From Angiostrongylus vasorum (Eukaryota > Nematoda > Chromadorea > Rhabditida > Metastrongylidae), in the NCBI GenBank assembly GCA_018806985.1, contig JADANN010000401.1, positions 3,162,001 to 3,226,000 on the forward strand: a DNA stretch of 64,000 nucleotides, read 5' to 3'. Position 1 is the first letter of the stretch, and each line of letters opens with the position of its first letter. The position numbers and the translations under genes were made by a program. Of this stretch, positions 6,094 through 64,000 are shown piece by piece. Under the pieces are notes generated by a model, which worked only from the letters and a program-made list of their open reading frames with translations, had not been told where the DNA came from and did not search any database.

Positions 6094-19152
<13,059 letters not shown>

Positions 19153-28278: not shown

Positions 28279-28311
<33 letters not shown>

Positions 28312-37739: not shown

Positions 37740-38154
37740 TAACGCGCCATGCCTTCCTATCGATTGGTTTTTGGTCTCCAGGCCTAATGGAATTTTCGAA
37801 AAAAAACCGTTCATTCTCGAAACTATGCCCTTTCTAGGATTCTCGAAACGTTCCTCTTTCGAAACGTCCCCCAATTTCGAAACTACCGCTCGATCGATGC
37901 GAAGGAATGTTCTAGACTCGAGCGCCGCGAATGTTTTCAGCCGCACGCATCGCGCCGCTGCCCATTTCTCGCTGTCGGTGCTCTCCAGAGTCCTCCATAA
38001 GGTGACAATCGGCAATTTATGTCTGCGTCTCTCCAACTGCGTTATTCATCGCTCAAGAATCGACCGTCTCCTCACTAACCACTGTGTTTCATAACCCGTT
38101 GGGTCGATAGTGGGCGTGGCAGGGTATATAAACGCATGCCAGGGTGGTTGATTC
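37740..38154 (+). promoter_or_regulatory. heat-shock-like promoter (HSE cluster, GC box, TATA)
   Basis: Base composition changes here to more CG-rich DNA with repeated TTCGAA/CTCGAAAC words. Correctly phased heat-shock-element units are visible: GAAttTTC (37,790-37,797), TTCtcGAA (37,814-37,821 and 37,840-37,847), TTCtaGGA (37,832-37,839) and a three-unit GAAtgTTCtaGAC (37,905-37,917). An inverted CCAAT (ATTGG, 37,763) and a GGGCGTGGC box (38,112-38,120) accompany a TATATAAA box at 38,125-38,132. Together they resemble a metazoan hsp promoter facing right. Predicted initiation is near 38,155-38,160 (ATTCATTCGAC). Inferred from motifs, not measured. Confidence 0.5.
38125..38132 (+). promoter_or_regulatory. 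TATA box
   Basis: TATATAAA preceded by GGCAGGG and a GGGCGTGGC box. It is the clearest core-promoter motif in this part of the window. Confidence 0.6.
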
Positions 38155-38242
38155 ATTCGACTGCTTCTGTTCCATTGGTGCGGACGTGTGTCGGCTGGTG
38201 ATGTGATCCGGTGGGCTGTTTCAATTTTTATACAGTCGAGCT

Positions 38243-38323
38243 ATGATGTATTATTCTAGCTGGTTGTTAACTGGTTTTCGCAAAGTTATTGATCATAATG
38301 GGCGATCTTGGAGAAAACGTTGA
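38243..38323 (+). CDS. 26-codon small ORF downstream of the heat-shock-like promoter
   Basis: ATGATGTAT... to TGA encodes 26 residues (MMYYSSWLLTGF then a basic end RSWRKR). It begins about 85 nt after the predicted start site. The only earlier ATG (38,201) is followed at once by TGA. The peptide has no recognised domain. The Drosophila hsr-omega transcript also has a translated ORF of about 23-27 codons, which makes this size notable, but chance cannot be excluded. Confidence 0.3.
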   Translation: MMYYSSWLLTGFRKVIDHNGRSWRKR

Positions 38324-39727
38324 ACTACAATGCTATTCATCGGTTGAAATTAAATGTGATTCTGTGATGGATTTCCGTGGATTTCAATTCAGCGAGTAGC
38401 AAGCCTTATGAAGCAGCTTGTGAAGCGTCCAACGTAGGACTGTAAGGTTGGTGTTGCGTAAAGGCTCTGTGATTGGTGATTTTTGGTTTCGAGACAGAAC
38501 CATCCTGGCGGCGGTTACCAGATATCGGCTTGTTTTATTCGGGTGCTGTGTAGTACTCCCTCACCCCATACGAGGTGGTTTGTGTTGGATGACCAGACGT
38601 AGGTGCGTCGCGTTACGGTGTTGCGTCGCGGGTATGCAGTTGGACCTTTGCCAGTTTATGGGCGTATATCGGTACAGCCAATTGGTGCTGAACGGCGCAG
38701 CTCACTATGTGGTGGTTGTCCTTGAGCTGTTATCAAACCGGGGTAAACTAACTGAGTAAGCTTGTGAAAATCCTATGGATTCGATTGCCACTAGTTCAAC
38801 CCGTCTTTTATGAGCGCTTCGGAAGTTTTAGATCTGAGCTTGGAAATTGCGGTATGGTTTGAACCACATGTCGGGATTCTGCATAAGAACTAGTTGTTAA
38901 CATAGTGTTATGCAACGTTGTTTCGGTCCTTTATCGCATATTGTGTTCATGGTTCAGCTCATGGGGTGGAACGATACCATCATAAAGCTGCCCAAATGAA
39001 ACAAGCCGAAATCATTTAATACTAGCAGTATAGCGTGTTGTGTTCACGTATCAAAGTAGCCAATGTCCGTTTTCAGGTGTTCATATGACAAGATAGAGTT
39101 AACGCTATTTTGGCGCTTACTCTCGTTCACTCACTGTCACTCAGTCACCTCTCTCCATCTAAGTGTGTAGGACGCTGGGCGATTTTGTTCGCCACCCATG
39201 TTTTCCGAGATGAGACCCCGAGATGTTCGAGTGATGATTAGTGCTGTCCGCAAACCCATGAAGATGAAGTCGCAAATATATGATATATCGTTTTGAAAAG
39301 GTTGAATTCCAGTAATTACAAAAGTTGTCTGGGAATTGATTAGTGAGTGTCTCACGCAGATCTTAGTTTGGACTGTTAATTGTTCGTAGCCGGTAGTTCT
39401 GAAGTGAGATGTAAACATGCAGATGCGTAAACGTTTGTGTACTGCCTCTATTTCAAACTGCAGACGCTTTTTGCATGGACGTTTAGGTGTTCAGTGTTTT
39501 TTTACCGCTACATGACTGTTCGTCTGCTAGGGTAACACTGCTGAGGGTTTAATTTGTTAGTCATTAACGGCATGGAGCCAATAACGCCGATGAAGTAATA
39601 GGAGTAAGAGACGGTGAATGGTATGCATTGCTCATAGCATATACTGTTATGTCACATAGTTTCATTGTTACGATTTTTAAATGCTAGATACAATAAATAG
39701 TAACGTTGGTCACTTGTAATGTTACGT

Positions 39728-39767
39728 ATTTCTTTTTTTCCCTTTCAGGACGCCGTGGAACTTTCAG
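39728..39767 (+). promoter_or_regulatory. strong 3' splice site (tandem acceptors)
   Basis: TTTCTTTTTTTCCCTTTCAG ends at 39,748 and a second CTTTCAG follows at 39,767. This is the best nematode-type acceptor outside the chitinase genes and implies an intron in the transcript from the promoter at 38,125. Confidence 0.5.
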
Positions 39768-40879: not shown

Positions 40880-41390
40880 CCCTATCCACGCTGGAAGTCG
40901 TTTACTACTCCACTTTTGGTAGTCAAACTGTAATCTCTCATTCGCTCTGTTGAAACCTGCACAAGTATTCTTCGGCCACTTTGGGTCAACGCTGTAGTGT
41001 CTGAGATGGTTGTCAGTTGCCACATTGAAAAAAAAGCTATAGATTTTCTGAAGGCGAAATGAAATTCTGATTTTGACGCGATAACCAACGGGTTAAGGTG
41101 GAAGGGCTGGTACAAAAAATTTATCAGATGAGATTCATTGGGAAGTTTTTCCAGTATATGGTTCCTTTACAATTATTAAAATTCCACACCTACGAGATGG
41201 ACAGCTCTTGAAGTCAGGTCTGAATGATTTCGTTCATGGTGACATCCGAAATACACTTGGTTCCGAAATATTTTCTACAAAAAAGTTTCCTGTTTGTGTG
41301 CTAGAGAACTCATATGGCATTGATCTGGAAGAGTCTCATTGTACTGATTCCTGGAAGAACTACTGTACTTTTGCTAGCCAGGCCCTGATC
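40880..41390 (+). repeat. divergent edge monomer of the satellite
   Basis: Aligns along its whole length with the downstream monomers but with many substitutions (for example TTTGGGTCAACGCTGTAGTG for TTTAGTTTAAGACTGTAGTG, and GAAGTTTTTCCAGTATATGG). It retains the long spacer, which marks long monomers as ancestral. Confidence 0.8.
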
Positions 41391-44300
41391 TATCCTTCGT
41401 TCCCATCAAACGCGCACAAGTATTCGTTTGGCCATTTCAGTTTAAGACTGTAGTGTTTAAGATGATTGTCAGTTGCCACCTTGAAAAAAATGGTACAGAT
41501 TTTCTAAACGCGAAATGAATCCTCGATTTTGACATGGTAGGCGACGGACGGATTAAGGTGGCAGTGGTGCCACAAGAAATTACCAGATGAGGTTCAGTGG
41601 GGAATTTTTTCCAGAATTTAAGTCCTTTGAAATTCCCGCATCTATGAGATTGACGGCTCGTGAAGTCATTAGGCCTAAAGAATTTCATTCATTGTCATAT
41701 TTGCAATACATTTGCTGAGCTTCCCTTAGTAACTGATGGACTTTCGCGACCTTGGTAGGGGAGTTTTGTATGAAAATTGTTGATTGTTTATCTCTGTGTA
41801 GTGGTCCCGAAATATTTCTTCTACAGAAAATTACTGTTTATGTGCTAGACGCCTCATAATTCATGAAATCTGGAAGAGTCCCTTTGTAGTGATTCCTGGA
41901 AGAACTACTGTACTTTTGCTAGCCAGGCTGTGATCTATCCTTCGTTCCCATCAAACGCGCACAAGTATTCTTTTGGCCATTTTAGTTTAAGACTGTAGTG
42001 TCTAAGATGATTGTTAGTTGCCACCTTGAAAAAGAATGGTATAGATTTTCTAAACGCGAAATGAAACTTCGATTTTGACGTGGTAGGCGACAGACGGATT
42101 AAGGTGGTAGGGGGTGGCACAAGAAATTACCAGATGAGGTTCAGTGGGGAATTTTTGCAGAATTTAAGTCCTTTGAAATTCCCGCATCTATGAGATTGAC
42201 GGCTCGTGAAGTCATTAGGCCTAAAGAATTTCATTCATTGTCATATCTGGAATACATTTGCTGAGGTTCCCTTAGTAACTGATGGACTTTCGTGACCTTG
42301 GTAGGGGAGTTTTGTATGAAAATTGTTGATTGTTTATCTCTGTGTAGTGGTCCCGAAATATTTCTTCTATAGAGAATTACTGAACTACTGTACTTTTGCT
42401 AGCCAGGCTGTGATCTATCCTTCGTTCCCATCAAACGCGCACAAATATTCTTTTTGGCCATCTTAGTTTAAGACTGTAGTGTCTAAGATGATTGTCAGTT
42501 GCCTTCTTGAAAAAAAAGGTATAGATTTTCTAAACGCGAAACGAAACTTCGATTTTGACATGGTAGGCGACGGACGGATTAAGATGGTAGGGGGTGCCAC
42601 AAGAAATTACCAGATGAGGTTCAGTGGGGAATTTTTTGCAGAATTTAAGTCCTTTGAAATTCCCGCATCTATGAGATTGACGGCTCGTGAAGTCATTAGG
42701 CCTAAAGAATTTCATTCATTGTCATATCTGGAATACATTTGCTGAGGTTCCCTTAGTAACTGATGGACTTTCGTGACCTTGGTAGGGGAGTTTTGTATGA
42801 AAATTGTTGATTGTTTATCTCTGTGTAGTGGTCCCGAAATATTTCTTCTACAGAAAATTACTGTTTATGTGCTAGACGCCTCATAATTGATGAAATCTGG
42901 AAGAGTCTCGTTGTACTGATTCCTGGAAGAACTACTGTACTTTTGCTAGCCAGGCTCTGATGTATCCTTCGTTCCCATCAAACGCGCTAAAGTATTCTTT
43001 TGGCCATTTTAGTTTAAGACTGTAGTGTCTAAGATGATTGTTAGTTGCCACCTTGAAAAAAATGGTACAGATTTTCTAAACGCGAAATGAATCCTCGATT
43101 TTGACATGGTAGGCGACGGACGGATTAAGGTGGCAGTGGTGCCACAAGAAATTACCAGATGAGGTTCAGTGGGGAATTTTTCCAGAATTTAAGTCCTTTG
43201 AAATTCCCGCATCTATGAGATTGACGGCTCATGAAGTCGTTAGGCCTAAAGAATTTCATTCATTGTCATATCTGGAATACATTTGCTGAGCTTCCCTTAG
43301 TAACTGATGGGCTTTCGTGACCTTGGTAGGGGAGTGTTGTATGAAAATTGTTGATTGTTTATCTCTGTGTAGTGGTCCCGAAATATTTCTTCTATAGAGA
43401 ATTACTGAACTACTGTACTTTTGCTAGCCAGGCTGTGATCTATCCTTCGTTCCCATCAAACGCGCACAAATATTCTTTTTGGCCATCTTAGTTTAAGACT
43501 GTAGTGTCTAAGATGATTGTCAGTTGCCTTCTTGAAAAAAAAAGGTATAGATTTTCTAAACGCGAAACGAAACTTCGATTTTGACATGGTAGGCGACGGA
43601 CGGATTAAGATGGTAGGGGTGCCACAAGAAATTACCAGATGAGGTTCAGTGGGGAATTTTTGCAGAATTTAAGTCCTTTGAAATTCCCGCATCTATGAGA
43701 TTGACGGCTCGTGAAGTCATTAGGCCTAAAGAATTTCATTCATTGTCATATCTGGAATACATTTGCTGAGGTTCCCTTAGTAACTGATGGACTTTCGTGA
43801 CCTTGGTAGGGGAGTTTTGTATGAAAATTGTTGATTGTTTATCTCTGTGTAGTGGTCCCGAAATATTTCTTCTACAGAGAATTACTGAACTACTGTACTT
43901 TTGCTAGCCAGGCTGTGATCTATCCTTCGTTCCCATCAAACGCGCACAAATATTCTTTTGGCCATCTTAGTTTAAGACTGTAGTGTCTAAGATGATTGTC
44001 AGTTGCCTTCTTGAAAAAAAAAGGTATAGATTTTCTAAACGCGAAACGAAACTTCGATTTTGACATGGTAGGCGACGGACGGATTAAGATGGTAGGGGTG
44101 CCACAAGAAATTACCAGATGAGGTTCAGTGGGGAATTTTTGCAGAATTTAAGTCCTTTGAAATTCCCGCATCTATGAGATTGACGGCTCGTGAAGTCATT
44201 AGGCCTAAAGAATTTCATTCATTGTCATATCTGGAATACATTTGCTGAGGTTCCCTTAGTAACTGATGGACTTTCGTGACCTTGGTAGGGGAGTTTTGTA

Positions 44301-47300
44301 TGAAAATTGTTGATTGTTTATCTCTGTGTAGTGGTCCCGAAATATTTCTTCTACAGAAAATTACTGTTTATGTGCTAGACGCCTCATAATTGATGAAATC
44401 TGGAAGAGTCTCGTTGTACTGATTCCTGGAAGAACTACTGTACTTTTGCTAGCCAGGCTGTGATCTATCCTTCGTTCCCATCAAACGCGCACAAATATTC
44501 TTTTTGGCCATCTTAGTTTAAGACTGTAGTGTCTAAGATGATTGTCAGTTGCCTTCTTGAAAAAAAAAGGTATAGATTTTCTAAACGCGAAACGAAACTT
44601 CGATTTTGAGATGGTAGGCGACGGACGGATTAAGGTGGTAGGGGTGGCACAAGAAATTACCAGATGAGGTTCAGTGGGGAATTTTTGCAGAATTTAAGTC
44701 CTTTGAAATTCCCGCATCTATGAGATTGACGGCTCGTGAAGTCATTAGGCCTAAAGAATTTCATTCATTGTCATATCTGGAATACATTTGCTGAGCTTCC
44801 CTTAGTAACTGATGGACTTTCGTGACCTTGGTAGGGGAGTTTTGTATGAAAATTGTTGATTGTTTATCTCTGTGTAGTGGTCCCGAAATATTTCTTCTAC
44901 AGAAAATTACTGTTTATGTGCTAGACGCCTCATAATTGATGAAATCTGGAAGAGTCTCGTTGTACTGATTCCTGGAAGAACTACTGTACTTTTGCTAGCC
45001 AGGCTGTGATCTATCCTTCGTTCCCATCAAACGCGCACAAATATTCTTTTTGGCCATCTTAGTTTAAGACTGTAGTGTTTAAGATGATTGTCAGTTGCCT
45101 TCTTGAAAAAAAAAGGTATAGATTTTCTAAACGCGAAACGAAACTTCGATTTTGACATGGTAGGCGACGGACGGATTAAGGTGGTAGGGGTGGCACAAGA
45201 AATTACCAGATGAGGTTCAGTGGGGGAATTTTTGCAGAATTTAAGTCCTTTGAAATTCCCGCATCTATGAGATTGACGGCTCGTGAAGTCATTAGGCCTA
45301 AAGAATTTCATTCATTGTCATATCTGGAATACATTTGCTGAGGTTCCCTTAGTAACTGATGGACTTTCGTGACCTTGGTAGGGGAGTTTTGTATGAAAAT
45401 TGTTGATTGTTTATCTCTGTGTAGTGGTCCCGAAATATTTCTTCTACAGAAAATTACTGTTTATGTGCTAGACGCCTCATAATTGATGAAATCTGGAAGA
45501 GTCTCGTTGTACTGATTCCTGGAAGAACTACTGTACTTTTGCTAGTCAGGCTGTGATCCATCCTTCGTTCCCATCAAACGCGCACAAATATTCTTTTGGC
45601 CATCTTAGTTTAAGACTGTAGTGTCTAAGATGATTGTCAGTTGCCTTCTTGAAAAAAAAGGTATAGATTTTCTAAACGCGAAATGAAACTTCGATTTTGA
45701 GATGGTAGGCGACGGACGGATTAAGGTGGTAGGGGTGGCACAAGAAATTACCAGATGAGGTTCAGTGGGGGAATTTTTGCAGAATTTAAGTCCTTTGAAA
45801 TTCCCGCATCTATGAGATTGACGGCTCGTGAAGTCATTAGGCCTAAAGAATTTCATTCATTGTCATATCTGGAATACATTTGCTGAGCTTCCCTTAGTAA
45901 CTGATGGACTTTCGTGACCTTGGTAGGGGAGTTTTGTATGAAAATTGTTGATTGTTTATCTCTGTGTAGTGGTCCCGAAATATTTCTTCTACAGAGAATT
46001 ACTGAACTACTGTACTTTTGCTAGCCAGGCTGTGATCTATCCTTCGTTCCCATCAAACGCGCACAAATATTCTTTTTGGCCATCTTAGTTTAAGACTGTA
46101 GTGTCTAAGATGATTGTCAGTTGCCTTCTTGAAAAAAAAAGGTATAGATTTTCTAAACGCGAAACGAAACTTCGATTTTGACATGGTAGGCGACGGACGG
46201 ATTAAGATGGTAGGGGGTGCCACAAGAAATTACCAGATGAGGTTCAGTGGGGAATTTTTTGCAGAATTTAAGTCCTTTGAAATTCCCGCATCTATGAGAT
46301 TGACGGCTCGTGAAGTCATTAGGCCTAAAGAATTTCATTCATTGTCATATCTGGAATACATTTGCTGAGGTTCCCTTAGTAACTGATGGACTTTCGTGAC
46401 CTTGGTAGGGGAGTTTTGTATGAAAATTGTTGATTGTTTATCTCTGTGTAGTGGTCCCGAAATATTTCTTCTACAGAAAATTACTGTTTATGTGCTAGAC
46501 GCCTCATAATTGATGAAATCTGGAAGAGTCTCGTTGTACTGATTCCTGGAAGAACTACTGTACTTTTGCTAGTCAGGCTGTGATCCATCCTTCGTTTCCA
46601 TCAAACGCGCACAAATATTCTTTTGGCCATCTTAGTTTAAGAGTGTAGTGTCTAAGATGATTGTCAGTTGCCTTCTTGAAAAAAAAAGGTATAGATTTTC
46701 TAAACGCGAAACGAAACTTCGATTTTGACATGGTAGGCGACGGACGGATTAAGATGGTAGGGGTGGCACAAGAAATTACCAGATGAGGTTCAGTGGGGGA
46801 ATTTTTGCAGAATTTAAGTCCTTTGAAATTCCCGCATCTATGAGATTGACGGCTCGTGAAGTCATTAGGCCTAAAGAATTTCATTCATTGTCATATCTGG
46901 AATACATTTGCTGAGGTTCCCTTAGTAACTGATGGACTTTCGTGACCTTGGTAGGGGAGTTTTGTATGAAAATTGTTGATTGTTTATCTCTGTGTAGTGG
47001 TCCCGAAATATTTCTTCTATAGAGAATTACTGAACTACTGTACTTTTGCTAGCCAGGCTGTGATCTATCCTTCGTTCCCATCAAACGCGCACAAATATTC
47101 TTTTTGGCCATCTTAGTTTAAGACTGTAGTGTCTAAGATGATTGTCAGTTGCCTTCTTGAAAAAAAAAGGTATAGATTTTCTAAACGCGAAACGAAACTT
47201 CGATTTTGACATGGTAGGCGACGGACGGATTAAGATGGTAGGGGTGCCACAAGAAATTACCAGATGAGGTTCAGTGGGGGAATTTTTGCAGAATTTAAGT

Positions 47301-50300
47301 CCTTTGAAATTCCCGCATCTATGAGATTGACGGCTCGTGAAGTCATTAGGCCTAAAGAATTTCATTCATTGTCATATCTGGAATACATTTGCTGAGGTTC
47401 CCTTAGTAACTGATGGACTTTCGTGACCTTGGTAGGGGAGTTTTGTATGAAAATTGTTGATTGTTTATCTCTGTGTAGTGGTCCCGAAATATTTCTTCTA
47501 TAGAGAATTACTGAACTACTGTACTTTTGCTAGCCAGGCTGTGATCTATCCTTCGTTCCCATCAAACGCGCACAAATATTCTTTTTGGCCATCTTAGTTT
47601 AAGACTGTAGTGTCTAAGATGATTGTCAGTTGCCTTCTTGAAAAAAAAAGGTATAGATTTTCTAAACGCGAAACGAAACTTCGATTTTGACATGGTAGGC
47701 GACGGACGGATTAAGATGGTAGGGGTGCCACAAGAAATTACCAGATGAGGTTCAGTGGGGGAATTTTTGCAGAATTTAAGTCCTTTGAAATTCCCGCATC
47801 TATGAGATTGACGGCTCGTGAAGTCATTAGGCCTAAAGAATTTCATTCATTGTCATATCTGGAATACATTTGCTGAGGTTCCCTTAGTAACTGATGGACT
47901 TTCGTGACCTTGGTAGGGGAGTTTTGTATGAAAATTGTTGATTGTTTATCTCTGTGTAGTGGTCCCGAAATATTTCTTCTACAGAAAATTACTGTTTATG
48001 TGCTAGACGCCTCATAATTGATGAAATCTGGAAGAGTCTCGTTGTACTGATTCCTGGAAGAACTACTGTACTTTTGCTAGCCAGGCTGTGATCTATCCTT
48101 CGTTCCCATCAAACGCGCACAAATATTCTTTTTGGCCATCTTAGTTTAAGACTGTAGTGTTTAAGATGATTGTCAGTTGCCTTCTTGAAAAAAAAAGGTA
48201 TAGATTTTCTAAACGCGAAACGAAACTTCGATTTTGACATGGTAGGCGACGGACGGATTAAGGTGGTAGGGGTGGCACAAGAAATTACCAGATGAGGTTC
48301 AGTGGGGAATTTTTGCAGAATTTAAGTCCTTTGAAATTCCCGCATCTATGAGATTGACGGCTCGTGAAGTCATTAGGCCTAAAGAATTTCATTCATTGTC
48401 ATATCTGGAATACATTTGCTGAGGTTCCCTTAGTAACTGATGGACTTTCGTGACCTTGGTAGGGGAGTTTTGTATGAAAATTGTTGATTGTTTATCTCTG
48501 TGTAGTGGTCCCGAAATATTTCTTCTACAGAAAATTACTGTTTATGTGCTAGACGCCTCATAATTGATGAAATCTGGAAGAGTCTCGTTGTACTGATTCC
48601 TGGAAGAACTACTGTACTTTTGCTAGCCAGGCTGTGATCTATCCTTCGTTCCCATCAAACGCGCACAAATATTCTTTTTGGCCATCTTAGTTTAAGACTG
48701 TAGTGTCTAAGATGATTGTCAGTTGCCTTCTTGAAAAAAAAAGGTATAGATTTTCTAAACGCGAAACGAAACTTCGATTTTGACATGGTAGGCGACGGAC
48801 GGATTAAGATGGTAGGGGTGGCACAAGAAATTACCAGATGAGGTTCAGTGGGGAATTTTTGCAGAATTTAAGTCCTTTGAAATTCCCGCATCTATGAGAT
48901 TGACGGCTCGTGAAGTCATTAGGCCTAAAGAATTTCATTCATTGTCATATCTGGAATACATTTGCTGAGGTTCCCTTAGTAACTGATGGACTTTCGTGAC
49001 CTTGGTAGGGGAGTTTTGTATGAAAATTGTTGATTGTTTATCTCTGTGTAGTGGTCCCGAAATATTTCTTCTATAGAGAATTACTGAACTACTGTACTTT
49101 TGCTAGCCAGGCTGTGATCTATCCTTCGTTCCCATCAAACGCGCACAAATATTCTTTTGGCCATCTTAGTTTAAGACTGTAGTGTCTAAGATGATTGTCA
49201 GTTGCCTTCTTGAAAAAAAAAGGTATAGATTTTCTAAACGCGAAACGAAACTTCGATTTTGACATGGTAGGCGACGGACGGATTAAGATGGTAGGGGTGC
49301 CACAAGAAATTACCAGATGAGGTTCAGTGGGGAATTTTTTGCAGAATTTAAGTCCTTTGAAATTCCCGCATCTATGAGATTGACGGCTCGTGAAGTCATT
49401 AGGCCTAAAGAATTTCATTCATTGTCATATCTGGAATACATTTGCTGAGGTTCCCTTAGTAACTGATGGACTTTCGTGACCTTGGTAGGGGAGTTTTGTA
49501 TGAAAATTGTTGATTGTTTATCTCTGTGTAGTGGTCCCGAAATATTTCTTCTATAGAGAATTACTGAACTACTGTACTTTTGCTAGCCAGGCTGTGATCT
49601 ATCCTTCGTTCCCATCAAACGCGCACAAATATTCTTTTTTGGCCATCTTAGTTTAAGACTGTAGTGTTTAAGATGATTGTCAGTTGCCTTCTTGAAAAAA
49701 AAAGGTATAGATTTTCTAAACGCGAAACGAAACTTCGATTTTGACATGGTAGGCGACGGACGGATTAAGGTGGTAGGGGTGGCACAAGAAATTACCAGAT
49801 GAGGTTCAGTGGGGAATTTTTGCAGAATTTAAGTCCTTTGAAATTCCCGCATCTATGAGATTGACGGCTCGTGAAGTCATTAGGCCTAAAGAATTTCATT
49901 CATTGTCATATCTGGAATACATTTGCTGAGGTTCCCTTAGTAACTGATGGACTTTCGTGACCTTGGTAGGGGAGTTTTGTATGAAAATTGTTGATTGTTT
50001 ATCTCTGTGTAGTGGTCCCGAAATATTTCTTCTATAGAGAATTACTGAACTACTGTACTTTTGCTAGCCAGGCTGTGATCTATCCTTCGTTCCCATCAAA
50101 CGCGCACAAATATTCTTTTTGGCCATCTTAGTTTAAGACTGTAGTGTCTAAGATGATTGTCAGTTGCCTTCTTGAAAAAAAAAGGTATAGATTTTCTAAA
50201 CGCGAAACGAAACTTCGATTTTGACATGGTAGGCGACGGACGGATTAAGGTGGTAGGGGTGGCACAAGAAATTACCAGATGAGGTTCAGTGGGGGAATTT

Positions 50301-50990
50301 TTGCAGAATTTAAGTCCTTTGAAATTCCCGCATCTATGAGATTGACGGCTCGTGAAGTCATTAGGCCTAAAGAATTTCATTCATTGTCATATCTGGAATA
50401 CATTTGCTGAGGTTCCCTTAGTAACTGATGGACTTTCGTGACCTTGGTAGGGGAGTTTTGTATGAAAATTGTTGATTGTTTATCTCTGTGTAGTGGTCCC
50501 GAAATATTTCTTCTACAGAAAATTACTGTTTATGTGCTAGACGCCTCATAATTGATGAAATCTGGAAGAGTCTCGTTGTACTGATTCCTGGAAGAACTAC
50601 TGTACTTTTGCTAGCCAGGCTGTGATCCATCCTTCGTTCCCATCAAACGCGCACAAATATTCTTTTTGGCCATCTTAGTTTAAGACTGTAGTGTCTAAGA
50701 TGATTGTCAGTTGCCTTCTTGAAAAAAAAAGGTATAGATTTTCTAAACGCGAAACGAAACTTCGATTTTGACATGGTAGGCGACGGACGGATTAAGGTGG
50801 TAGGGGTGGCACAAGAAATTACCAGATGAGGTTCAGTGGGGAATTTTTGCAGAATTTAAGTCCTTTGAAATTCCCGCATCTATGAGATTGACGGCTCGTG
50901 AAGTCATTAGGCCTAAAGAATTTCATTCATTGTCATATCTGGAATACATTTGCTGAGCTTCCCTTAGTAACTGATGGACTTTCGTGACCT
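41391..50990 (+). repeat. satellite array, mixed 480- and ~546-bp monomers
   Basis: About 19 head-to-tail monomers. Long forms contain a ~66-bp spacer piece (TTTATGTGCTAGACGCCTCA...CTGATTCCTGGAAG) between ATTACTG and AACTACTG; short forms lack it. Long and short forms alternate irregularly, and the last long one has its spacer near 50,525-50,590. Frames of up to 103 codons on both strands exist but break at A- and G-homopolymers from copy to copy, so coding is not supported. Confidence 0.95.
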
Positions 50991-53900
50991 TGGTAGGGGA
51001 GTTTTGTATGAAAATTGTTGATTGTTTATCTCTGTGTAGTGGTCCCGAAATATTTCTTCTACAGAGAATTACTGAACTACTGTACTTTTGCTAGCCAGGC
51101 TGTGATCTATCCTTCGTTCCCATCAAACGCGCACAAATATTCTTTTGGCCATCTTAGTTTAAGACTGTAGTGTCTAAGATGATTGTCAGTTGCCTTCTTG
51201 AAAAAAAAAGGTATAGATTTTCTAAACGCGAAACGAAACTTCGATTTTGACATGGTAGGCGACGGACGGATTAAGATGGTAGGGGTGCCACAAGAAATTA
51301 CCAGATGAGGTTCAGTGGGGAATTTTTGCAGAATTTAAGTCCCTTTGAAATTCCCGCATCTATGAGATTGACGGCTCGTGAAGTCATTAGGCCTAAAGAA
51401 TTTCATTCATTGTCATATCTGGAATACATTTGCTGAGGTTCCCTTAGTAACTGATGGACTTTCGTGACCTTGGTAGGGGAGTTTTGTATGAAAATTGTTG
51501 ATTGTTTATCTCTGTGTAGTGGTCCCGAAATATTTCTTCTATAGAGAATTACTGAACTACTGTACTTTTGCTAGCCAGGCTGTGATCTATCCTTCGTTCC
51601 CATCAAACGCGCACAAATATTCTTTTTGGCCATCTTAGTTTAAGACTGTAGTGTCTAAGATGATTGTCAGTTGCCTTCTTGAAAAAAAAGGTATAGATTT
51701 TCTAAACGCGAAACCAAACTTCGATTTTGACATGGTAGGCGACGGACGGATTAAGATGGTAGGGGTGCCACAAGAAATTACCAGATGAGGTTCAGTGGGG
51801 AATTTTTGCAGAATTTAAGTCCTTTGAAATTCCCGCATCTATGAGATTGACGGCTCGTGAAGTCATTAGGCCTAAAGAATTTCATTCATTGTCATATCTG
51901 GAATACATTTGCTGAGGTTCCCTTAGTAACTGATGGACTTTCGTGACCTTGGTAGGGGAGTTTTGTATGAAAATTGTTGATTGTTTATCTCTGTGTAGTG
52001 GTCCCTGAAATATTTCTTCTATAGAGAATTACTGAACTACTGTACTTTTGCTAGCCAGGCTGTGATCTATCCTTCGTTCCCATCAAACGCGCACAAATAT
52101 TCTTTTGGCCGTCTTAGTTTAAGACTGTAGTGTCTAAGATGATTGTCAGTTGCCTTCTTGAAAAAAAAAGGTATAGATTTTCTAAACGCGAAACGAAACT
52201 TCGATTTTGACATGGTAGGCGACGGATGGATTAAGATGGTAGGGGTGCCACAAGAAATTACCAGATGAGGTTCAGTGGGGAATTTTTGCAGAATTTAAGT
52301 CCTTTGAAATTCCCGCATCTATGAGATTGACGGCTCGTGAAGTCATTAGGCCTAAAGAATTTCATTCATTGTCATATCTGGAATACATTTGCTGAGGTTC
52401 CGTTAGTAACTGATGGACTTTCGTGACCTTGGTAGGGGAGTTTTGTATGAAAGTTCTTGATTGTTTATCTCTGTGTAGTGGTCCCGAAATATTTCTTCTA
52501 TAGAGAATTACTGAACTACTGTACTTTTGCTAGCCAGGCTGTGATCTATCCTTCGTTCCCATCAAACGCGCACAAATATTCTTTTGGCCATCTTAGTTTA
52601 AGACTGTAGTGTCTAAGATGATTGTCAGTTGCCTTCTTGAAAAAAAAGGTATAGATTTTCTAAACGCGAAACGAAACTTCGATTTTGACATGGTAGGCGA
52701 CGGACGGATTAAGATGGTAGGGGTGCCACAAGAAATTACCAGATGAGGTTCAGTGGGGAATTTTTGCAGAATTTAAGTCCTTTGAAATTCCCGCATCTAT
52801 GAGATTGACGGCTCGTGAAGTCATTAGGCCTAAAGAATTTCATTCATTGTCATATCTGGAATACATTTGCTGAGGTTCCGTTAGTAACTGATGGACTTTC
52901 GTGACCTTGGTAGGGGAGTTTTTGTATGAAAATTGTTGATTGTTTATCTCTGTGTAGTGGTCCCGAAATATTTCTTCTATAGAGAATTACTGAACTACTG
53001 TACTTTTGCTAGCCAGGCTGTGATCTATCCTTCGTTCCCATCAAACGCGCACAAATATTCTTTTGGCCATCTTAGTTTAAGACTGTAGTGTCTAAGATGA
53101 TTGTCAGTTGCCTTCTTGAAAAAAAAGGTATAGATTTTCTAAACGCGAAACGAAACTTCGATTTTTGACATGGTAGGCGACGGACGGATTAAGATGGTAG
53201 GGGTGCCACAAGAAATTACCAGATGAGGTTCAGTGGGGAATTTTTGCAGAATTTAAGTCCTTTGAAATTCCCGCATCTATGAGATTGACGGCTCGTGAAG
53301 TCATTAGGCCTAAAGAATTTCATTCATTGTCATATCTGGAATACATTTGCTGAGGTTCCGTTAGTAACTGATGGACTTTCGTGACCTTGGTAGGGGAGTT
53401 TTGTATGAAAATTGTTGATTGTTTATCTCTGTGTAGTGGTCCCGAAATATTTCTTCTATAGAGAATTACTGAACTACTGTACTTTTGCTAGCCAGGCTGT
53501 GATCTATCCTTCGTTCCCATCAAACGCGCACAAATATTCTTTTGGCCATCTTAGTTTAAGACTGTAGTGTCTAAGATGATTGTCAGTTGCCTTCTTGAAA
53601 AAAAAGGTATAGATTTTCTAAACGCGAAACGAAACTTCGATTTTGACATGGTAGGCGACGGACGGATTAAGGTGGTAGGGGTGCCACAAGAAATTACCAG
53701 ATGAGGTTCAGTGGGGAATTTTTGCAGAATTTAAGTCCTTTGAAATTCCCGCATCTATGAGATTGACGGCTCGTGAAGTCATTAGGCCTAAAGAATTTCA
53801 TTCATTGTCATATCTGGAATACATTTGCTGAGGTTCCCTTAGTAACTGATGGACTTTCGTGACCTTGGTAGGGGAGTTTTGTATGAAAATTGTTGATTGT

Positions 53901-56900
53901 TTATCTCTGTGTAGTGGTCCCGAAATATTTCTTCTATAGAGAATTACTGAACTACTGTACTTTTGCTAGCCAGGCTGTGATCTATCCTTCGTTCCCATCA
54001 AACGCGCACAAATATTCTTTTGGCCATCTTAGTTTAAGACTGTAGTGTCTAAGATGATTGTCAGTTGCCTTCTTGAAAAAAAAAGGTATAGATTTTCTAA
54101 ACGCGAAATGAAACTTCGATTTTGACATGGTAGGCGACGGATGGATTAAGATGGTAGGGGTGCCACAAGAAATTACCAGATGAGGTTCAGTGGGGAATTT
54201 TTGCAGAATTTAAGTCCTTTGAAATTCCCGCATCTATGAGATTGACGGCTCGTGAAGTCATTAGGCCTAAAGAATTTCATTCATTGTCATATCTGGAATA
54301 CATTTGCTGAGGTTCCGTTAGTAACTGATGGACTTTCGTGACCTTGGTAGGGGAGTTTTGTATGAAAATTGTTGATTGTTTATCTCTGTGTAGTGGTCCC
54401 GAAATATTTCTTCTATAGAGAATTACTGAACTACTGTACTTTTGCTAGCCAGGCTGTGATCTATCCTTCGTTCCCATCAAACGCGCACAAATATTCTTTT
54501 GGCCATCTTAGTTTAAGACTGTAGTGTCTAAGATGATTGTCAGTTGCCTTCTTGAAAAAAAAGGTATAGATTTTCTAAACGCGAAACGAAACTTCGATTT
54601 TGACATGGTAGGCGACGGACGGATTAAGATGGTAGGGGTGCCACAAGAAATTACCAGATGAGGTTCAGTGGGGAATTTTTGCAGAATTTAAGTCCTTTGA
54701 AATTCCCGCATCTATGAGATTGACGGCTCGTGAAGTCATTAGGCCTAAAGAATTTCATTCATTGTCATATCTGGAATACATTTGCTGAGGTTCCGTTAGT
54801 AACTGATGGACTTTCGTGACCTTGGTAGGGGAGTTTTGTATGAAAATTGTTGATTGTTTATCTCTGTGTAGTGGTCCCGAAATATTTCTTCTATAGAGAA
54901 TTACTGAACTACTGTACTTTTGCTAGCCAGGCTGTGATCTATCCTTCGTTCCCATCAAACGCGCACAAATATTCTTTTGGCCATCTTAGTTTAAGACTGT
55001 AGTGTCTAAGATGATTGTCAGTTGCCTTCTTGAAAAAAAAAGGTATAGATTTTCTAAACGCGAAACGAAACTTCGATTTTGACATGGTAGGCGACGGACG
55101 GATTAAGATGGTAGGGGTGCCACAAGAAATTACCAGATGAGGTTCAGTGGGGAATTTTTGCAGAATTTAAGTCCTTTGAAATTCCCGCATCTATGAGATT
55201 GACGGCTCGTGAAGTCATTAGGCCTAAAGAATTTCATTCATTGTCATATCTGGAATACATTTGCTGAGGTTCCGTTAGTAACTGATGGACTTTCGTGACC
55301 TTGGTAGGGGAGTTTTGTATGAAAATTGTTGATTGTTTATCTCTGTGTAGTGGTCCCGAAATATTTCTTCTATAGAGAATTACTGAACTACTGTACTTTT
55401 GCTAGCCAGGCTGTGATCTATCCTTCGTTCCCATCAAACGCGCACAAATATTCTTTTGGCCATCTTAGTTTAAGACTGTAGTGTCTAAGATGATTGTCAG
55501 TTGCCTTCTTGAAAAAAAAAGGTATAGATTTTCTAAACGCGAAACGAAACTTCGATTTTGACATGGTAGGCGACGGACGGATTAAGATGGTAGGGGTGCC
55601 ACAAGAAATTACCAGATGAGGTTCAGTGGGGAATTTTTGCAGAATTTAAGTCCTTTGAAATTCCCGCATCTATGAGATTGACGGCTCGTGAAGTCATTAG
55701 GCCTAAAGAATTTCATTCATTGTCATATCTGGAATACATTTGCTGAGGTTCCGTTAGTAACTGATGGACTTTCGTGACCTTGGTAGGGGAGTTTTGTATG
55801 AAAATTGTTGATTGTTTATCTCTGTGTAGTGGTCCCGAAATATTTCTTCTATAGAGAATTACTGAACTACTGTACTTTTGCTAGCCAGGCTGTGATCTAT
55901 CCTTCGTTCCCATCAAACGCGCACAAATATTCTTTTTGGCCATCTTAGTTTAAGACTGTAGTGTCTAAGATGATTGTCAGTTGCCTTCTTGAAAAAAAAG
56001 GTATAGATTTTCTAAACGCGAAACGAAACTTCGATTTTGACATGGTAGGCGACGGACGGATTAAGATGGTAGGGGTGCCACAAGAAATTACCAGATGAGG
56101 TTCAGTGGGGAATTTTTGCAGAATTTAAGTCCTTTGAAATTCCCGCATCTATGAGATTGACGGCTCGTGAAGTCATTAGGCCTAAAGAATTTCATTCATT
56201 GTCATATCTGGAATACATTTGCTGAGGTTCCGTTAGTAACTGATGGACTTTCGTGACCTTGGTAGGGGAGTTTTGTATGAAAATTGTTGATTGTTTATCT
56301 CTGTGTAGTGGTCCCGAAATATTTCTTCTATAGAGAATTACTGAACTACTGTACTTTTGCTAGCCAGGCTGTGATCTATCCTTCGTTCCCATCAAACGCG
56401 CACAAATATTCTTTTGGCCATCTTAGTTTAAGACTGTAGTGTCTAAGATGATTGTCAGTTGCCTTCTTGAAAAAAAAAGGTATAGATTTTCTAAACGCGA
56501 AACGAAACTTCGATTTTGACATGGTAGGCGACGGACGGATTAAGATGGTAGGGGTGCCACAAGAAATTACCAGATGAGGTTCAGTGGGGAATTTTTGCAG
56601 AATTTAAGTCCTTTGAAATTCCCGCATCTATGAGATTGACGGCTCGTGAAGTCATTAGGCCTAAAGAATTTCATTCATTGTCATATCTGGAATACATTTG
56701 CTGAGGTTCCGTTAGTAACTGATGGACTTTCGTGACCTTGGTAGGGGAGTTTTGTATGAAAATTGTTGATTGTTTATCTCTGTGTAGTGGTCCCGAAATA
56801 TTTCTTCTATAGAGAATTACTGAACTACTGTACTTTTGCTAGCCAGGCTGTGATCTATCCTTCGTTCCCATCAAACGCGCACAAATATTCTTTTTGGCCA

Positions 56901-59900
56901 TCTTAGTTTAAGACTGTAGTGTCTAAGATGATTGTCAGTTGCCTTCTTGAAAAAAAAAGGTATAGATTTTCTAAACGCGAAACGAAACTTCGATTTTGAC
57001 ATGGTAGGCGACGGACGGATTAAGATGGTAGGGGTGCCACAAGAAATTACCAGATGAGGTTCAGTGGGGAATTTTTTGCAGAATTTAAGTCCTTTGAAAT
57101 TCCCGCATCTATGAGATTGACGGCTCGTGAAGTCATTAGGCCTAAAGAATTTCATTCATTGTCATATCTGGAATACATTTGCTGAGGTTCCGTTAGTAAC
57201 TGATGGACTTTCGTGACCTTGGTAGGGGAGTTTTGTATGAAAATTGTTGATTGTTTATCTCTGTGTAGTGGTCCCGAAATATTTCTTCTATAGAGAATTA
57301 CTGAACTACTGTACTTTTGCTAGCCAGGCTGTGATCTATCCTTCGTTCCCATCAAACGCGCACAAATATTCTTTTGGCCATCTTAGTTTAAGACTGTAGT
57401 GTCTAAGATGATTGTCAGTTGCCTTCTTGAAAAAAAAAGGTATAGATTTTCTAAACGCGAAACGAAACTTCGATTTTGACATGGTAGGCGACGGACGGAT
57501 TAAGATGGTAGGGGTGCCACAAGAAATTACCAGATGAGGTTCAGTGGGGAATTTTTGCAGAATTTAAGTCCTTTGAAATTCCCGCATCTATGAGATTGAC
57601 GGCTCGTGAAGTCATTAGGCCTAAAGAATTTCATTCATTGTCATATCTGGAATACATTTGCTGAGGTTCCCGTTAGTAACTGATGGACTTTCGTGACCTT
57701 GGTAGGGGAGTTTTGTATGAAAATTGTTGATTGTTTATCTCTGTGTAGTGGTCCCGAAATATTTCTTCTATAGAGAATTACTGAACTACTGTACTTTTGC
57801 TAGCCAGGCTGTGATCTATCCTTCGTTCCCATCAAACGCGCACAAATATTCTTTTGGCCATCTTAGTTTAAGACTGTAGTGTCTAAGATGATTGTCAGTT
57901 GCCTTCTTGAAAAAAAAAGGTATAGATTTTCTAAACGCGAAACCAAACTTCGATTTTGACATGGTAGGCGACGGACGGATTAAGATGGTAGGGGTGCCAC
58001 AAGAAATTACCAGATGAGGTTCAGTGGGGAATTTTTGCAGAATTTAAGTCCTTTGAAATTCCCGCATCTATGAGATTGACGGCTCGTGAAGTCATTAGGC
58101 CTAAAGAATTTCATTCATTGTCATATCTGGAATACATTTGCTGAGGTTCCCTTAGTAACTGATGGACTTTCGTGACCTTGGTAGGGGAGTTTTGTATGAA
58201 AATTGTTGATTGTTTATCTCTGTGTAGTGGTCCCGAAATATTTCTTCTATAGAGAATTACTGAACTACTGTACTTTTGCTAGCCAGGCTGTGATCTATCC
58301 TTCGTTCCCATCAAACGCGCACAAATATTCTTTTGGCCATCTTAGTTTAAGACTGTAGTGTCTAAGATGATTGTCAGTTGCCTTCTTGAAAAAAAAAGGT
58401 ATAGATTTTCTAAACGCGAAACGAAACTTCGATTTTGACATGGTAGGCGACGGACGGATTAAGATGGTAGGGGGTGCCACAAGAAATTACCAGATGAGGT
58501 TCAGTGGGGAATTTTTGCAGAATTTAAGTCCTTTGAAATTCCCGCATCTATGAGATTGACGGCTCGTGAAGTCATTAGGCCTAAAGAATTTCATTCATTG
58601 TCATATCTGGAATACATTTGCTGAGGTTCCGTTAGTAACTGATGGACTTTCGTGACCTTGGTAGGGGAGTTTTGTATGAAAATTGTTGATTGTTTATCTC
58701 TGTGTAGTGGTCCCGAAATATTTCTTCTATAGAGAATTACTGAACTACTGTACTTTTGCTAGCCAGGCTGTGATCTATCCTTCGTTCCCATCAAACGCGC
58801 ACAAATATTCTTTTGGCCATCTTAGTTTAAGACTGTAGTGTCTAAGATGATTGTCAGTTGCCTTCTTGAAAAAAAAAGGTATAGATTTTCTAAACGCGAA
58901 ACGAAACTTCGATTTTGACATGGTAGGCGACGGACGGATTAAGATGGTAGGGGGTGCCACAAGAAATTACCAGATGAGGTTCAGTGGGGAATTTTTGCAG
59001 AATTTAAGTCCTTTGAAATTCCCGCATCTATGAGATTGACGGCTCGTGAAGTCATTAGGCCTAAAGAATTTCATTCATTGTCATATCTGGAATACATTTG
59101 CTGAGGTTCCGTTAGTAACTGATGGACTTTCGTGACCTTGGTAGGGGAGTTTTGTATGAAAATTGTTGATTGTTTATCTCTGTGTAGTGGTCCCGAAATA
59201 TTTCTTCTATAGAGAATTACTGAACTACTGTACTTTTGCTAGCCAGGCTGTGATCTATCCTTCGTTCCCATCAAACGCGCACAAATATTCTTTTTGGCCA
59301 TCTTAGTTTAAGACTGTAGTGTCTAAGATGATTGTCAGTTGCCTTCTTGAAAAAAAAAGGTATAGATTTTCTAAACGCGAAACGAAACTTCGATTTTGAC
59401 ATGGTAGGCGACGGACGGATTAAGATGGTAGGGGTGCCACAAGAAATTACCAGATGAGGTTCAGTGGGGAATTTTTGCAGAATTTAAGTCCTTTGAAATT
59501 CCCGCATCTATGAGATTGACGGCTCGTGAAGTCATTAGGCCTAAAGAATTTCATTCATTGTCATATCTGGAATACATTTGCTGAGGTTCCCGTTAGTAAC
59601 TGATGGACTTTCGTGACCTTGGTAGGGGAGTTTTGTATGAAAATTGTTGATTGTTTATCTCTGTGTAGTGGTCCCGAAATATTTCTTCTATAGAGAATTA
59701 CTGAACTACTGTACTTTTGCTAGCCAGGCTGTGATCTATCCTTCGTTCCCATCAAACGCGCACAAATATTCTTTTGGCCATCTTAGTTTAAGACTGTAGT
59801 GTCTAAGATGATTGTCAGTTGCCACCTTGAAAAAAAAGGTATAGATTTTCTAAACGCGAAACGAAACTTCGATTTTGACATGGTAGGCGACGGACGGATT

Positions 59901-62900
59901 AAGGTGGTAGGGGTGCCACAAGAAATTACCAGATGAGGTTCAGTGGGGAATTTTTGCAGAATTTAAGTCCTTTGAAATTCCCGCATCTATGAGATTGACG
60001 GCTCGTGAAGTCATTAGGCCTAAAGAATTTCATTCATTGTCATATCTGGAATACATTTGCTGAGGTTCCCTTAGTAACTGATGGACTTTCGTGACCTTGG
60101 TAGGGGAGTTTTGTATGAAAATTGTTGATTGTTTATCTCTGTGTAGTGGTCCCGAAATATTTCTTCTATAGAGAATTACTGAACTACTGTACTTTTGCTA
60201 GCCAGGCTGTGATCTATCCTTCGTTCCCATCAAACGCGCACAAATATTCTTTTGGCCATCTTAGTTTAAGACTGTAGTGTCTAAGATGATTGTCAGTTGC
60301 CTTCTTGAAAAAAAAAGGTATAGATTTTCTAAACGCGAAACCAAACTTCGATTTTGACATGGTAGGCGACGGACGGATTAAGATGGTAGGGGGTGCCACA
60401 AGAAATTACCAGATGAGGTTCAGTGGGGAATTTTTGCAGAATTTAAGTCCTTTGAAATTCCCGCATCTATGAGATTGACGGCTCGTGAAGTCATTAGGCC
60501 TAAAGAATTTCATTCATTGTCATATCTGGAATACATTTGCTGAGGTTCCCTTAGTAACTGATGGACTTTCGTGACCTTGGTAGGGGAGTTTTTGTATGAA
60601 AATTGTTGATTGTTTATCTCTGTGTAGTGGTCCCGAAATATTTCTTCTATAGAGAATTACTGAACTACTGTACTTTTGCTAGCCAGGCTGTGATCTATCC
60701 TTCGTTCCCATCAAACGCGCACAAATATTCTTTTGGCCATCTTAGTTTAAGACTGTAGTGTCTAAGATGATTGTCAGTTGCCTTCTTGAAAAAAAAAGGT
60801 ATAGATTTTCTAAACGCGAAACCAAACTTCGATTTTGACATGGTAGGCGACGGACGGATTAAGATGGTAGGGGTGCCACAAGAAATTACCAGATGAGGTT
60901 CAGTGGGGAATTTTTGCAGAATTTAAGTCCTTTGAAATTCCCGCATCTATGAGATTGACGGCTCGTGAAGTCATTAGGCCTAAAGAATTTCATTCATTGT
61001 CATATCTGGAATACATTTGCTGAGGTTCCCTTAGTAACTGATGGACTTTCGTGACCTTGGTAGGGGAGTTTTGTATGAAAATTGTTGATTGTTTATCTCT
61101 GTGTAGTGGTCCCGAAATATTTCTTCTATAGAGAATTACTGAACTACTGTACTTTTGCTAGCCAGGCTGTGATCTATCCTTCGTTCCCATCAAACGCGCA
61201 CAAATATTCTTTTGGCCATCTTAGTTTAAGACTGTAGTGTCTAAGATGATTGTCAGTTGCCTTCTTGAAAAAAAAGGTATAGATTTTCTAAACGCGAAAC
61301 GAAACTTCGATTTTGACATGGTAGGCGACGGACGGATTAAGATGGTAGGGGGTGCCACAAGAAATTACCAGATGAGGTTCAGTGGGGAATTTTTGCAGAA
61401 TTTAAGTCCTTTGAAATTCCCGCATCTATGAGATTGACGGCTCGTGAAGTCATTAGGCCTAAAGAATTTCATTCATTGTCATATCTGGAATACATTTGCT
61501 GAGGTTCCGTTAGTAACTGATGGACTTTCGTGACCTTGGTAGGGGAGTTTTGTATGAAAATTGTTGATTGTTTATCTCTGTGTAGTGGTCCCGAAATATT
61601 TCTTCTATAGAGAATTACTGAACTACTGTACTTTTGCTAGCCAGGCTGTGATCTATCCTTCGTTCCCATCAAACGCGCACAAATATTCTTTTGGCCATCT
61701 TAGTTTAAGACTGTAGTGTCTAAGATGATTGTCAGTTGCCTTCTTGAAAAAAAAAGGTATAGATTTTCTAAACGCGAAACGAAACTTCGATTTTGACATG
61801 GTAGGCGACGGACGGATTAAGATGGTAGGGGTGCCACAAGAAATTACCAGATGAGGTTCAGTGGGGAATTTTTGCAGAATTTAAGTCCTTTGAAATTCCC
61901 GCATCTATGAGATTGACGGCTCGTGAAGTCATTAGGCCTAAAGAATTTCATTCATTGTCATATCTGGAATACATTTGCTGAGGTTCCCTTAGTAACTGAT
62001 GGACTTTCGTGACCTTGGTAGGGGAGTTTTGTATGAAAATTGTTGATTGTTTATCTCTGTGTAGTGGTCCCGAAATATTTCTTCTATAGAGAATTACTGA
62101 ACTACTGTACTTTTGCTAGCCAGGCTGTGATCTATCCTTCGTTCCCATCAAACGCGCACAAATATTCTTTTTGGCCATCTTAGTTTAAGACTGTAGTGTC
62201 TAAGATGATTGTCAGTTGCCTTCTTGAAAAAAAAGGTATAGATTTTCTAAACGCGAAACCAAACTTCGATTTTGACATGGTAGGCGACGGACGGATTAAG
62301 ATGGTAGGGGGTGCCACAAGAAATTACCAGATGAGGTTCAGTGGGGAATTTTTTGCAGAATTTAAGTCCTTTGAAATTCCCGCATCTATGAGATTGACGG
62401 CTCGTGAAGTCATTAGGCCTAAAGAATTTCATTCATTGTCATATCTGGAATACATTTGCTGAGGTTCCCTTAGTAACTGATGGACTTTCGTGACCTTGGT
62501 AGGGGAGTTTTGTATGAAAATTGTTGATTGTTTATCTCTGTGTAGTGGTCCCGAAATATTTCTTCTATAGAGAATTACTGAACTACTGTACTTTTGCTAG
62601 CCAGGCTGTGATCTATCCTTCGTTCCCATCAAACGCGCACAAATATTCTTTTGGCCATCTTAGTTTAAGACTGTAGTGTCTAAGATGATTGTCAGTTGCC
62701 TTCTTGAAAAAAAAAGGTATAGATTTTCTAAACGCGAAACGAAACTTCGATTTTGACATGGTAGGCGACGGACGGATTAAGATGGTAGGGGGTGCCACAA
62801 GAAATTACCAGATGAGGTTCAGTGGGGGAATTTTTGCAGAATTTAAGTCCTTTGAAATTCCCGCATCTATGAGATTGACGGCTCGTGAAGTCATTAGGCC

Positions 62901-64000
62901 TAAAGAATTTCATTCATTGTCATATCTGGAATACATTTGCTGAGGTTCCCTTAGTAACTGATGGACTTTCGTGACCTTGGTAGGGGAGTTTTGTATGAAA
63001 ATTGTTGATTGTTTATCTCTGTGTAGTGGTCCCGAAATATTTCTTCTATAGAGAATTACTGAACTACTGTACTTTTGCTAGCCAGGCTGTGATCTATCCT
63101 TCGTTCCCATCAAACGCGCACAAATATTCTTTTGGCCATCTTAGTTTAAGACTGTAGTGTCTAAGATGATTGTCAGTTGCCTTCTTGAAAAAAAAGGTAT
63201 AGATTTTCTAAACGCGAAACGAAACTTCGATTTTGACATGGTAGGCGACGGACGGATTAAGGTGGTAGGGGTGCCACAAGAAATTACCAGATGAGGTTCA
63301 GTGGGGAATTTTTTCCAGAATTTAAGTCCTTTGAAATTCCCGCATCTATGAGATTGACGGCTCGTGAAGTCATTAGGCCTAAAGAATTTCATTCATTGTC
63401 ATATCTGGAATACATTTGCTGAGGTTCCCTTAGTAACTGATGGACTTTCGTGACCTTGGTAGGGGAGTTTTGTATGAAAATTGTTGATTGTTTATCTCTG
63501 TGTAGTGGTCCCGAAATATTTCTTCTATAGAGAATTACTGAACTACTGTACTTTTGCTAGCCAGGCTGTGATCTATCCTTCGTTCCCATCAAACGCGCAC
63601 AAATATTCTTTTTGGCCATCTTAGTTTAAGACTGTAGTGTCTAAGATGATTGTCAGTTGCCTTCTTGAAAAAAAAAGGTATAGATTTTCTAAACGCGAAA
63701 CCAAACTTCGATTTTGACATGGTAGGCGACGGACGGATTAAGATGGTAGGGGGTGCCACAAGAAATTACCAGATGAGGTTCAGTGGGGAATTTTTGCAGA
63801 ATTTAAGTCCTTTGAAATTCCCGCATCTATGAGATTGACGGCTCGTGAAGTCATTAGGCCTAAAGAATTTCATTCATTGTCATATCTGGAATACATTTGC
63901 TGAGGTTCCCTTAGTAACTGATGGACTTTCGTGACCTTGGTAGGGGAGTTTTGTATGAAAATTGTTGATTGTTTATCTCTGTGTAGTGGTCCCGAAATAT
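50991..64000 (+). repeat. satellite array, homogeneous ~480-bp monomers
   Basis: About 27 short monomers, nearly identical, differing at few positions (CTTAG/GTTAG after GGTTCC, GAAACGAAAC/GAAACCAAAC, one-base homopolymer changes). The array is cut by the window end. Each monomer holds three GGTAGG words (for example 58,442, 58,466 and 58,660) and usually TTCTTGAA and GAAACTTC (58,383 and 58,423). Confidence 0.97.

Follow-up and report, generated by a model that had tools for sequence, protein, structure and literature searches.

The hsr-omega (93D) gene of Drosophila combines a promoter containing heat shock elements (HSEs) and a TATA box with a choice of polyadenylation. It is a single-copy gene (PMC9032817) in which an exon 1 of ~475 bp carrying a 23–27-aa open reading frame (ORF), an intron of ~700 bp and an exon 2 of ~750 bp are followed by repeats, and in which the ORF sequence diverges while the organisation is kept (PMC9865238). 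The long form of the Drosophila RNA remains nuclear, and hnRNPs are held by it (PMC9865238, PMC9032817). In human satellite III, the repeats themselves are bound by heat shock factor 1 (HSF1) (PMC6453478); these lie on several chromosomes and are described from primates only, and omega speckles are reported only from Drosophila melanogaster (PMC9530788). In C. elegans, the repeat RNAs induced by heat in an HSF-1-dependent manner are chiefly Helitrons (PMC6765114), and the binding sites of HSF-1 granules are reported as not known (PMC6453478, PMC9737000). Here we describe a locus in a 64,000-nucleotide window of the nematode Angiostrongylus vasorum (contig JADANN010000401.1, here C401, positions 3162001–3226000; genome 279.9 Mb in 468 contigs), at which a promoter, a leader of ~2.7 kb and a satellite array follow one another. 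Of the systems described, hsr-omega is the nearest by its proposed working.

The reading that we tentatively favour, at a little short of an even chance, is that this is a duplicated non-coding RNA gene, independent of hsr-omega, which would produce a short polyadenylated RNA and a long nuclear repeat RNA and would probably be stress-induced; the genome would hold two units of it, or possibly three. The unit in the window has the layout that a first-pass annotation of the sequence had proposed: a GC box and a TATA box face right, the leader between promoter and array contains a 26-codon ORF, an AATAAA and a strong 3' splice site, and the array beyond runs head to tail, each of its 48 complete monomers (window plus L003) being 95.0–100% identical to the consensus. 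The array start at 41400 in that annotation had to be corrected, as the array (hereafter the 480 satellite) opens at ~40904 with one degraded copy (73% identity to the consensus), followed by copies at 95–97.5% and then by copies mostly at ~99%. The features of this unit, in window coordinates, are:

37786..37917 (+): cluster of two-unit HSEs (at 37790, 37814, 37840 and 37905) with TCGAAA motifs
37875..38154 (+): promoter kept in both units, 92.5% identity, gap-free
38112..38131 (+): GC box (GGGCGTGG, 38112) and TATA box (TATATAA, 38125)
38155..38457 (+): putative exon 1, 95–98% identical between units, its start placed ~30 bp past the TATA box by inference
38243..38323 (+): 26-codon ORF, open in each unit, the copies differing by two amino-acid replacements and no silent one
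38298..38399 (+): 33-codon ORF in a different frame, overlapping the 26-codon one and likewise open in each unit, with 3 amino acids differing between the copies
38447 (AAG/GTTGGT) and 38458 (GC/GTAAAG) (+): candidate 5' splice sites, both present in the second unit
38458..39076 (+): putative intron 1, with a TTTTCAG end in both units
39077..39720, 3' end approximate (+): putative exon 2 of the short RNA, ~90% identical over 39077–39245 and patchy over 39246–39445
39692..39697 (+): AATAAA, with its counterpart in the second unit at C456:35328
39734..39748 (+): second 3' splice acceptor CCCTTTCAG (polypyrimidine tract plus CAG), kept in the second unit
40904..64000, on to 65269 (+): satellite array of 479- and 546-bp forms with a degraded proximal edge

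A genome search with the promoter returned two places, the window and C456:33557-34082, a search with the leader matched C401 and C456 exclusively, and a 24-base word spanning the GC box and TATA box occurred twice genome-wide at up to 3 mismatches. Since these matches on contig C456 belong to a second unit, the promoter–leader–array arrangement is now replicated and not merely suggestive, and the hsr-omega-like order proposed by the first-pass annotation recurs in front of an unrelated monomer (hereafter the 513 satellite):

C456:33557-43450: second unit, promoter and leader followed by a 514-bp array

A transposon origin of the leader and promoter was considered and rejected, as only two copies were found in the genome.

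Alignment of the two units revealed conservation in discrete blocks. The stretch 37875-38465 aligns to C456 without gaps over 591 bp with 32 differences, and the 92 bp up to and including the TATA box (38040-38131) contain zero differences. Identity is 92.5% in the promoter, 95–98% in putative exon 1, 52% in the putative intron body, 83% over the last 88 bp of the intron and 90% in the exon-2 block, then 57–69% up to the second acceptor and 42% past it. Similarity falls steeply past 38463, right after GC/GTAAAG, with a weak BLAST extension to 38539; the intron body (38466-38987) is hardly alignable, and the better-matching final 88 bp close on a nematode-type acceptor, TTTTCAG, which ends at 39076 and, unlike the acceptor ending at 39748, was absent from the first-pass annotation. 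When local alignment scores were judged against the maximum of 60 shuffles, the promoter (238/14), exon 1 (285/13) and intron end plus exon 2 (185/15) scored highly, three stretches within 39246-39760 were above chance (60, 29 and 39 versus 13–15) and the putative intron body was barely so (20 versus 16). The DNA beyond the second acceptor (14 versus a shuffle maximum of 17) and the 575 bp upstream (14 versus 15) were at noise. Because the conserved blocks coincide with splice signals, these data support an exon/intron-like anatomy, and purifying selection on the promoter and exons after an old duplication would most simply account for the pattern. That the units are alleles instead of paralogues is disfavoured, as the tested 575 bp upstream do not align above shuffles.

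Judged from the sequence alone, the locus shares with hsr-omega a promoter, a tiny exon 1 ORF, one intron, an exon 2 and a long array in the same orientation, and the sizes of its putative exons and intron are similar. The predicted ORF has 26 codons (23–27 aa in hsr-omega), and here too organisation is kept while sequence diverges, the repeats being unrelated between units. By contrast, the monomers are of 479–546 and 514 bp here against 280 bp in hsr-omega, the array is at least 24 kb against 5–15 kb, and two promoter units with unrelated repeats stand against a single-copy gene; in addition, the HSEs are weaker than those of an hsp70 of the same genome. The hsr-omega repeats carry the nonamer ATAGGTAGG; with up to two mismatches allowed, the 480 consensus matches it once on its sense strand (mean of 0.52 in shuffles) and the 513 consensus not at all. 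GGTAGG, the core of this nonamer, is enriched in the 480 monomer alone, with 3 copies on the plus strand of its consensus (a count reached by 0/500 shuffles) and 0 in the 513 consensus. The likeness to satellite III and nuclear stress bodies lies in tandem repeats that are proposed here to be transcribed under HSF and to gather proteins. Of the two analogies drawn in the first-pass annotation, that with satellite III fits less well than that with hsr-omega, since the monomers here hold no HSE arrays: three-unit HSEs at ≤1 mismatch number 0 in either consensus. With the C. elegans Helitron RNAs the locus would share a nematode setting and repeat-derived RNA under HSF-1 (PMC6765114), HSF-1 control being our proposal for this locus, whereas those RNAs come from transposon families carrying HSEs and not from one locus in which a leader precedes tandem repeats.

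The arrays behind the two units were then compared. The 480 array is at least 24,366 bp long, as C401 stops inside it, 1,269 bp beyond the window (window coordinate 65269). Its monomers fall into length classes of 478–481 bp and 544–548 bp; within 41363-65269 the 546-bp form is interspersed to ~50.6 kb and found again at 64.0 kb, and the 479-bp form fills the space between, a distribution that suggests a 66-bp deletion that spread among monomers. In the second unit, the 514-bp array extends from a first degraded monomer at ~C456:35690 to ~C456:43450. The 513 satellite forms two blocks on this contig:

C456:1-21134 (L008, L006, L004): 513–514-bp satellite block, also fitting a 1,025-bp period
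C456:36341-43450 (L033): 513–514-bp satellite block

The former starts at the first base of the contig and may derive from a third unit with an unassembled promoter. It is followed by a broken 480-type monomer at C456:21157-21494; minus-strand frames at C456:21474-22378 (L004), by eye non-LTR retroelement endonuclease-like, adjoin this monomer. No 10-mer is common to the 480 and 513 satellites on either strand, one copy of each being compared. Across 280 Mb, 45/45 exact matches of a 480 anchor word are on C401 with 0 reverse, and 45/45 matches of a 513 anchor word at ≤2 mismatches are on C456 (32 in the first block, 13 in the second), again with 0 reverse; a DNA search with the 480 monomer found, besides the arrays (which its word filter skipped), only the broken copy on C456. 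Because the anchor words stay on their own contig and on one strand, each satellite looks like a repeat private to its locus and laid out in the sense direction of its promoter unit, not like a genome-wide satellite that is nearby by chance. As C401 ends in array, and C456 starts in array and carries both a 480 remnant and the paralogous promoter, the sequence also suggests that the two contigs may adjoin across unassembled array.

From this anatomy we infer a course of transcription, splicing and alternative processing, as well as stress induction, nuclear retention and a scaffold role for the product. The TATA promoter with its HSE-like sites would drive RNA rightward, and exon 1, carrying the 26-codon ORF, would be spliced to exon 2. 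Cleavage at the kept AATAAA would give a short, exported RNA; alternatively, splicing at the acceptor that ends 51 bp past this signal, or read-through, would give a long, nuclear-retained satellite RNA with a repeat tail that could serve as a scaffold holding RNA-binding proteins, as in hsr-omega-n. The repeat sequence would then be exchangeable, and the promoter, exons and RNA-processing signals would be kept. A stronger proposal, which we regard as speculative and unlikely in this full form, is that a stress gene of the hsr-omega type arose separately in a nematode lineage, that selection keeps the promoter, short exons and processing signals and needs a long tail of any sequence, the locus acting as an HSF-1 nuclear stress body scaffold.

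A number of observations weigh against the reading of a stress-induced gene with a short and a long RNA, and they concern the promoter, the extent of the gene and the arrays in turn. At the promoter, the first-pass annotation had noted clustered HSEs, which is borne out for two-unit sites: the window promoter has 4 exact copies in 420 bp, where the 88.7 kb around it predict 0.36 (Poisson P 0.0005), background windows (420 bp, step 100) have a maximum of 3, and 0/300 letter shuffles reach 4. Two three-unit HSEs with one mismatch (8/9 match) are also present (0.22 expected), one of which, at 37905-37917, is found in both units. The window promoter is nevertheless without any perfect three-unit HSE, and the second unit has just 2 exact two-unit HSEs, which is borderline (Poisson P about 0.05). 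HSP70-family matches occur on six contigs, and for three of these the upstream region of the hsp70-family gene (858–900 bp) was examined as a yardstick. The gene on C465, whose N terminus reads by eye as cytosolic, carries two perfect three-unit HSEs in this region, one lying 13 bp before the TATA box. Those on C464 and C242, with N termini that are signal-peptide-like by eye reading, lack any three-unit HSE at ≤1 mismatch; their two-unit sites number two and zero, respectively. The HSE content of the locus promoter is therefore between that of the C465 hsp70 and those of the C464 and C242 upstream regions.

The motif TCGAAA/TTTCGA, itself no HSE, exceeds the HSEs in enrichment, occurring 8 times in the promoter stretch of the window and 5 times in that of the second unit against an expectation of 0.36. 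Its copies (37786-37883; C456:33440-33565) lie mostly in flanks that are otherwise unalignable between the units. Because this motif is over-represented even more than the HSEs, a factor other than HSF may act through it. It is rather unlikely, in our judgement, that the same anatomy belongs to a non-stress gene, with a constitutive or developmental TATA promoter and HSE-like sites that are incidental or bound by another factor, an account that overlaps with the favoured one. The stronger enrichment of TCGAAA/TTTCGA and the lack of the perfect three-unit HSE seen at one hsp70 gene are in keeping with it, whereas four exact two-unit HSEs, unmatched in the tested background windows, and an 8/9 three-unit site kept in both units are not. 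As the HSE content is intermediate among the hsp70 controls and TCGAAA is more enriched, HSF control of the promoter is plausible; the claim of a heat-shock-type promoter in the first-pass annotation is only moderately supported, by the enriched two-unit HSEs and the 8/9 site in both units, with the two perfect HSEs of the C465 hsp70 as the reservation.

With regard to the extent of the gene, the conserved part stops at the second acceptor, so that the short RNA alone could be selected. A possibility that we take seriously without considering it probable is accordingly that the AATAAA at 39692 terminates a conserved gene for a short RNA or micropeptide and that the satellite is an unrelated local tandem expansion just past it. 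The AATAAA and both overlapping short ORFs are intact in the two units, as this would have it, and the 513 array at C456:1-21134 is without a visible upstream promoter within the contig. Chance adjacency, however, predicts otherwise than unrelated, private, sense-oriented arrays of ~500-bp monomers behind both units, and the kept acceptor 51 bp beyond the AATAAA makes most sense with an RNA that continues. A micropeptide also finds no sign of codon-level selection in the 26-codon ORF, with its two amino-acid changes and zero silent ones. Among ATG-started sense ORFs before the second acceptor, the longest has 56 aa in the window leader and 74 aa in the second leader; ATG-less frames reach 111 aa in sense (38424-38759) and 117 aa in antisense (39137-39490). 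A second AATAAA lies in the leader at 40108.

An AATAAA closely preceding an acceptor has the look of a nematode operon. The stretch 39692-39748 resembles such a junction; a further possibility is thus trans-splicing at 39748, with the array transcribed as part of a downstream unit. As befits a nematode genome, the spliced leader SL1 word has 266 exact copies genome-wide (121 forward, 145 reverse) and its reversed control 0.

Further points on the same side concern the comparison of units and the properties of the predicted RNAs. Gene conversion limited to the conserved blocks might also account for the likeness of exon 1; the arrays, belonging to duplicated units, are not two fully independent observations; and a run of ~100 N lies where the array of the second unit begins. 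Predicted folding was no better than shuffles for exon 1 RNA (z -0.11) or for a single monomer (z +0.90), and no motif common to both monomers was found. In favour of the reading, G-over-C skew is 0.19 in the window leader and 0.14 in the leader of the second unit versus 0.06 and 0.04 upstream. The T-over-A skew of the second leader (-0.068) is near that of its upstream DNA (-0.052). In the arrays, G-over-C skew is 0.15 for the 480 satellite and -0.08 for the 513 satellite, and because the latter is opposite in sign to the leaders, skew gives no support to transcription of the 513 arrays. AATAAA occurs 0 times on the sense strand in 24.4 kb of 480 array, and 0 times in 21.1 kb and once in 7.8 kb of 513 array, a scarcity that is uninformative because only 0.3–0.8 are expected per monomer. 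The polyadenylation variant ATTAAA occurs on the same strands once in the 480 array and 41 and 12 times in the 513 arrays, which is about once per 513 monomer. Exact two-unit HSEs number two in the 480 consensus (8/200 shuffles reach that) and none in the 513 consensus.

We consider it improbable that the locus is a relic, consisting of a duplicated promoter fragment and a dead gene beside an ordinary satellite, or an assembly artefact. Its surroundings are rich in repeats, the 10/45 ORFs of the window that were scanned included no recognisable coding gene, and the contig breaks within the array, all of which a relic would fit; a relic would not be expected to show ungapped near-identity of promoter and exon 1 next to a hardly alignable intron, and two promoter copies genome-wide do not make a transposon family. 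Nor are the units allele-like, given the unaligned upstream DNA. The array as an assembly join, which the first-pass annotation had named as a refuting case, is unlikely at the boundary of leader and array: the N count of the window is 0, and the array sets in gradually, with monomers of increasing likeness to the consensus.

In the scan behind this count, 8/10 frames (from 45 stop-to-stop frames of ≥95 aa in window 1-42000) had no Pfam family, one Transposase_1 fragment scored above the cut-off and one transposase match scored under it; the fragment is of mariner/Tc type and lies at 25218-25508 (E 4e-9). Rfam yielded 0 families in the window at the gathering threshold. A tRNA-Ser (TGA) lies at 20174-20250 on the minus strand, and long TATG/TATGG and TG microsatellites at 28238-28705 and 11661-11855. 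Window matches to several places on C456 (to window 18.5 kb and from 37000, among the matches listed) are probably dispersed repeats. Near the second unit, the only likely coding gene seen consists of minus-strand frames, by eye sushi/CCP-domain-like, at C456:49918-52943 and 74060-74428. Elsewhere, COX1 matches number 11, each interrupted by in-frame stops when read with the standard code (in some by TGA alone); the COX1-like stretches on G000:C140, C335, C108 and C2 are possibly nuclear copies of mitochondrial DNA. The promoter word had 0 matches in the viral and prokaryote contig sets, a result uninformative on conservation.

Among the matches listed in a search of open literature (titles and starts of abstracts, with most subscription journals outside its range), no heat-inducible tandem-satellite gene in a nematode was found. 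If the favoured reading is true, this locus would be a third independent case beside omega speckles and satellite III, and its two units with unrelated repeats would allow a direct test of whether it is the sequence of the repeats that matters or their length and repetition.

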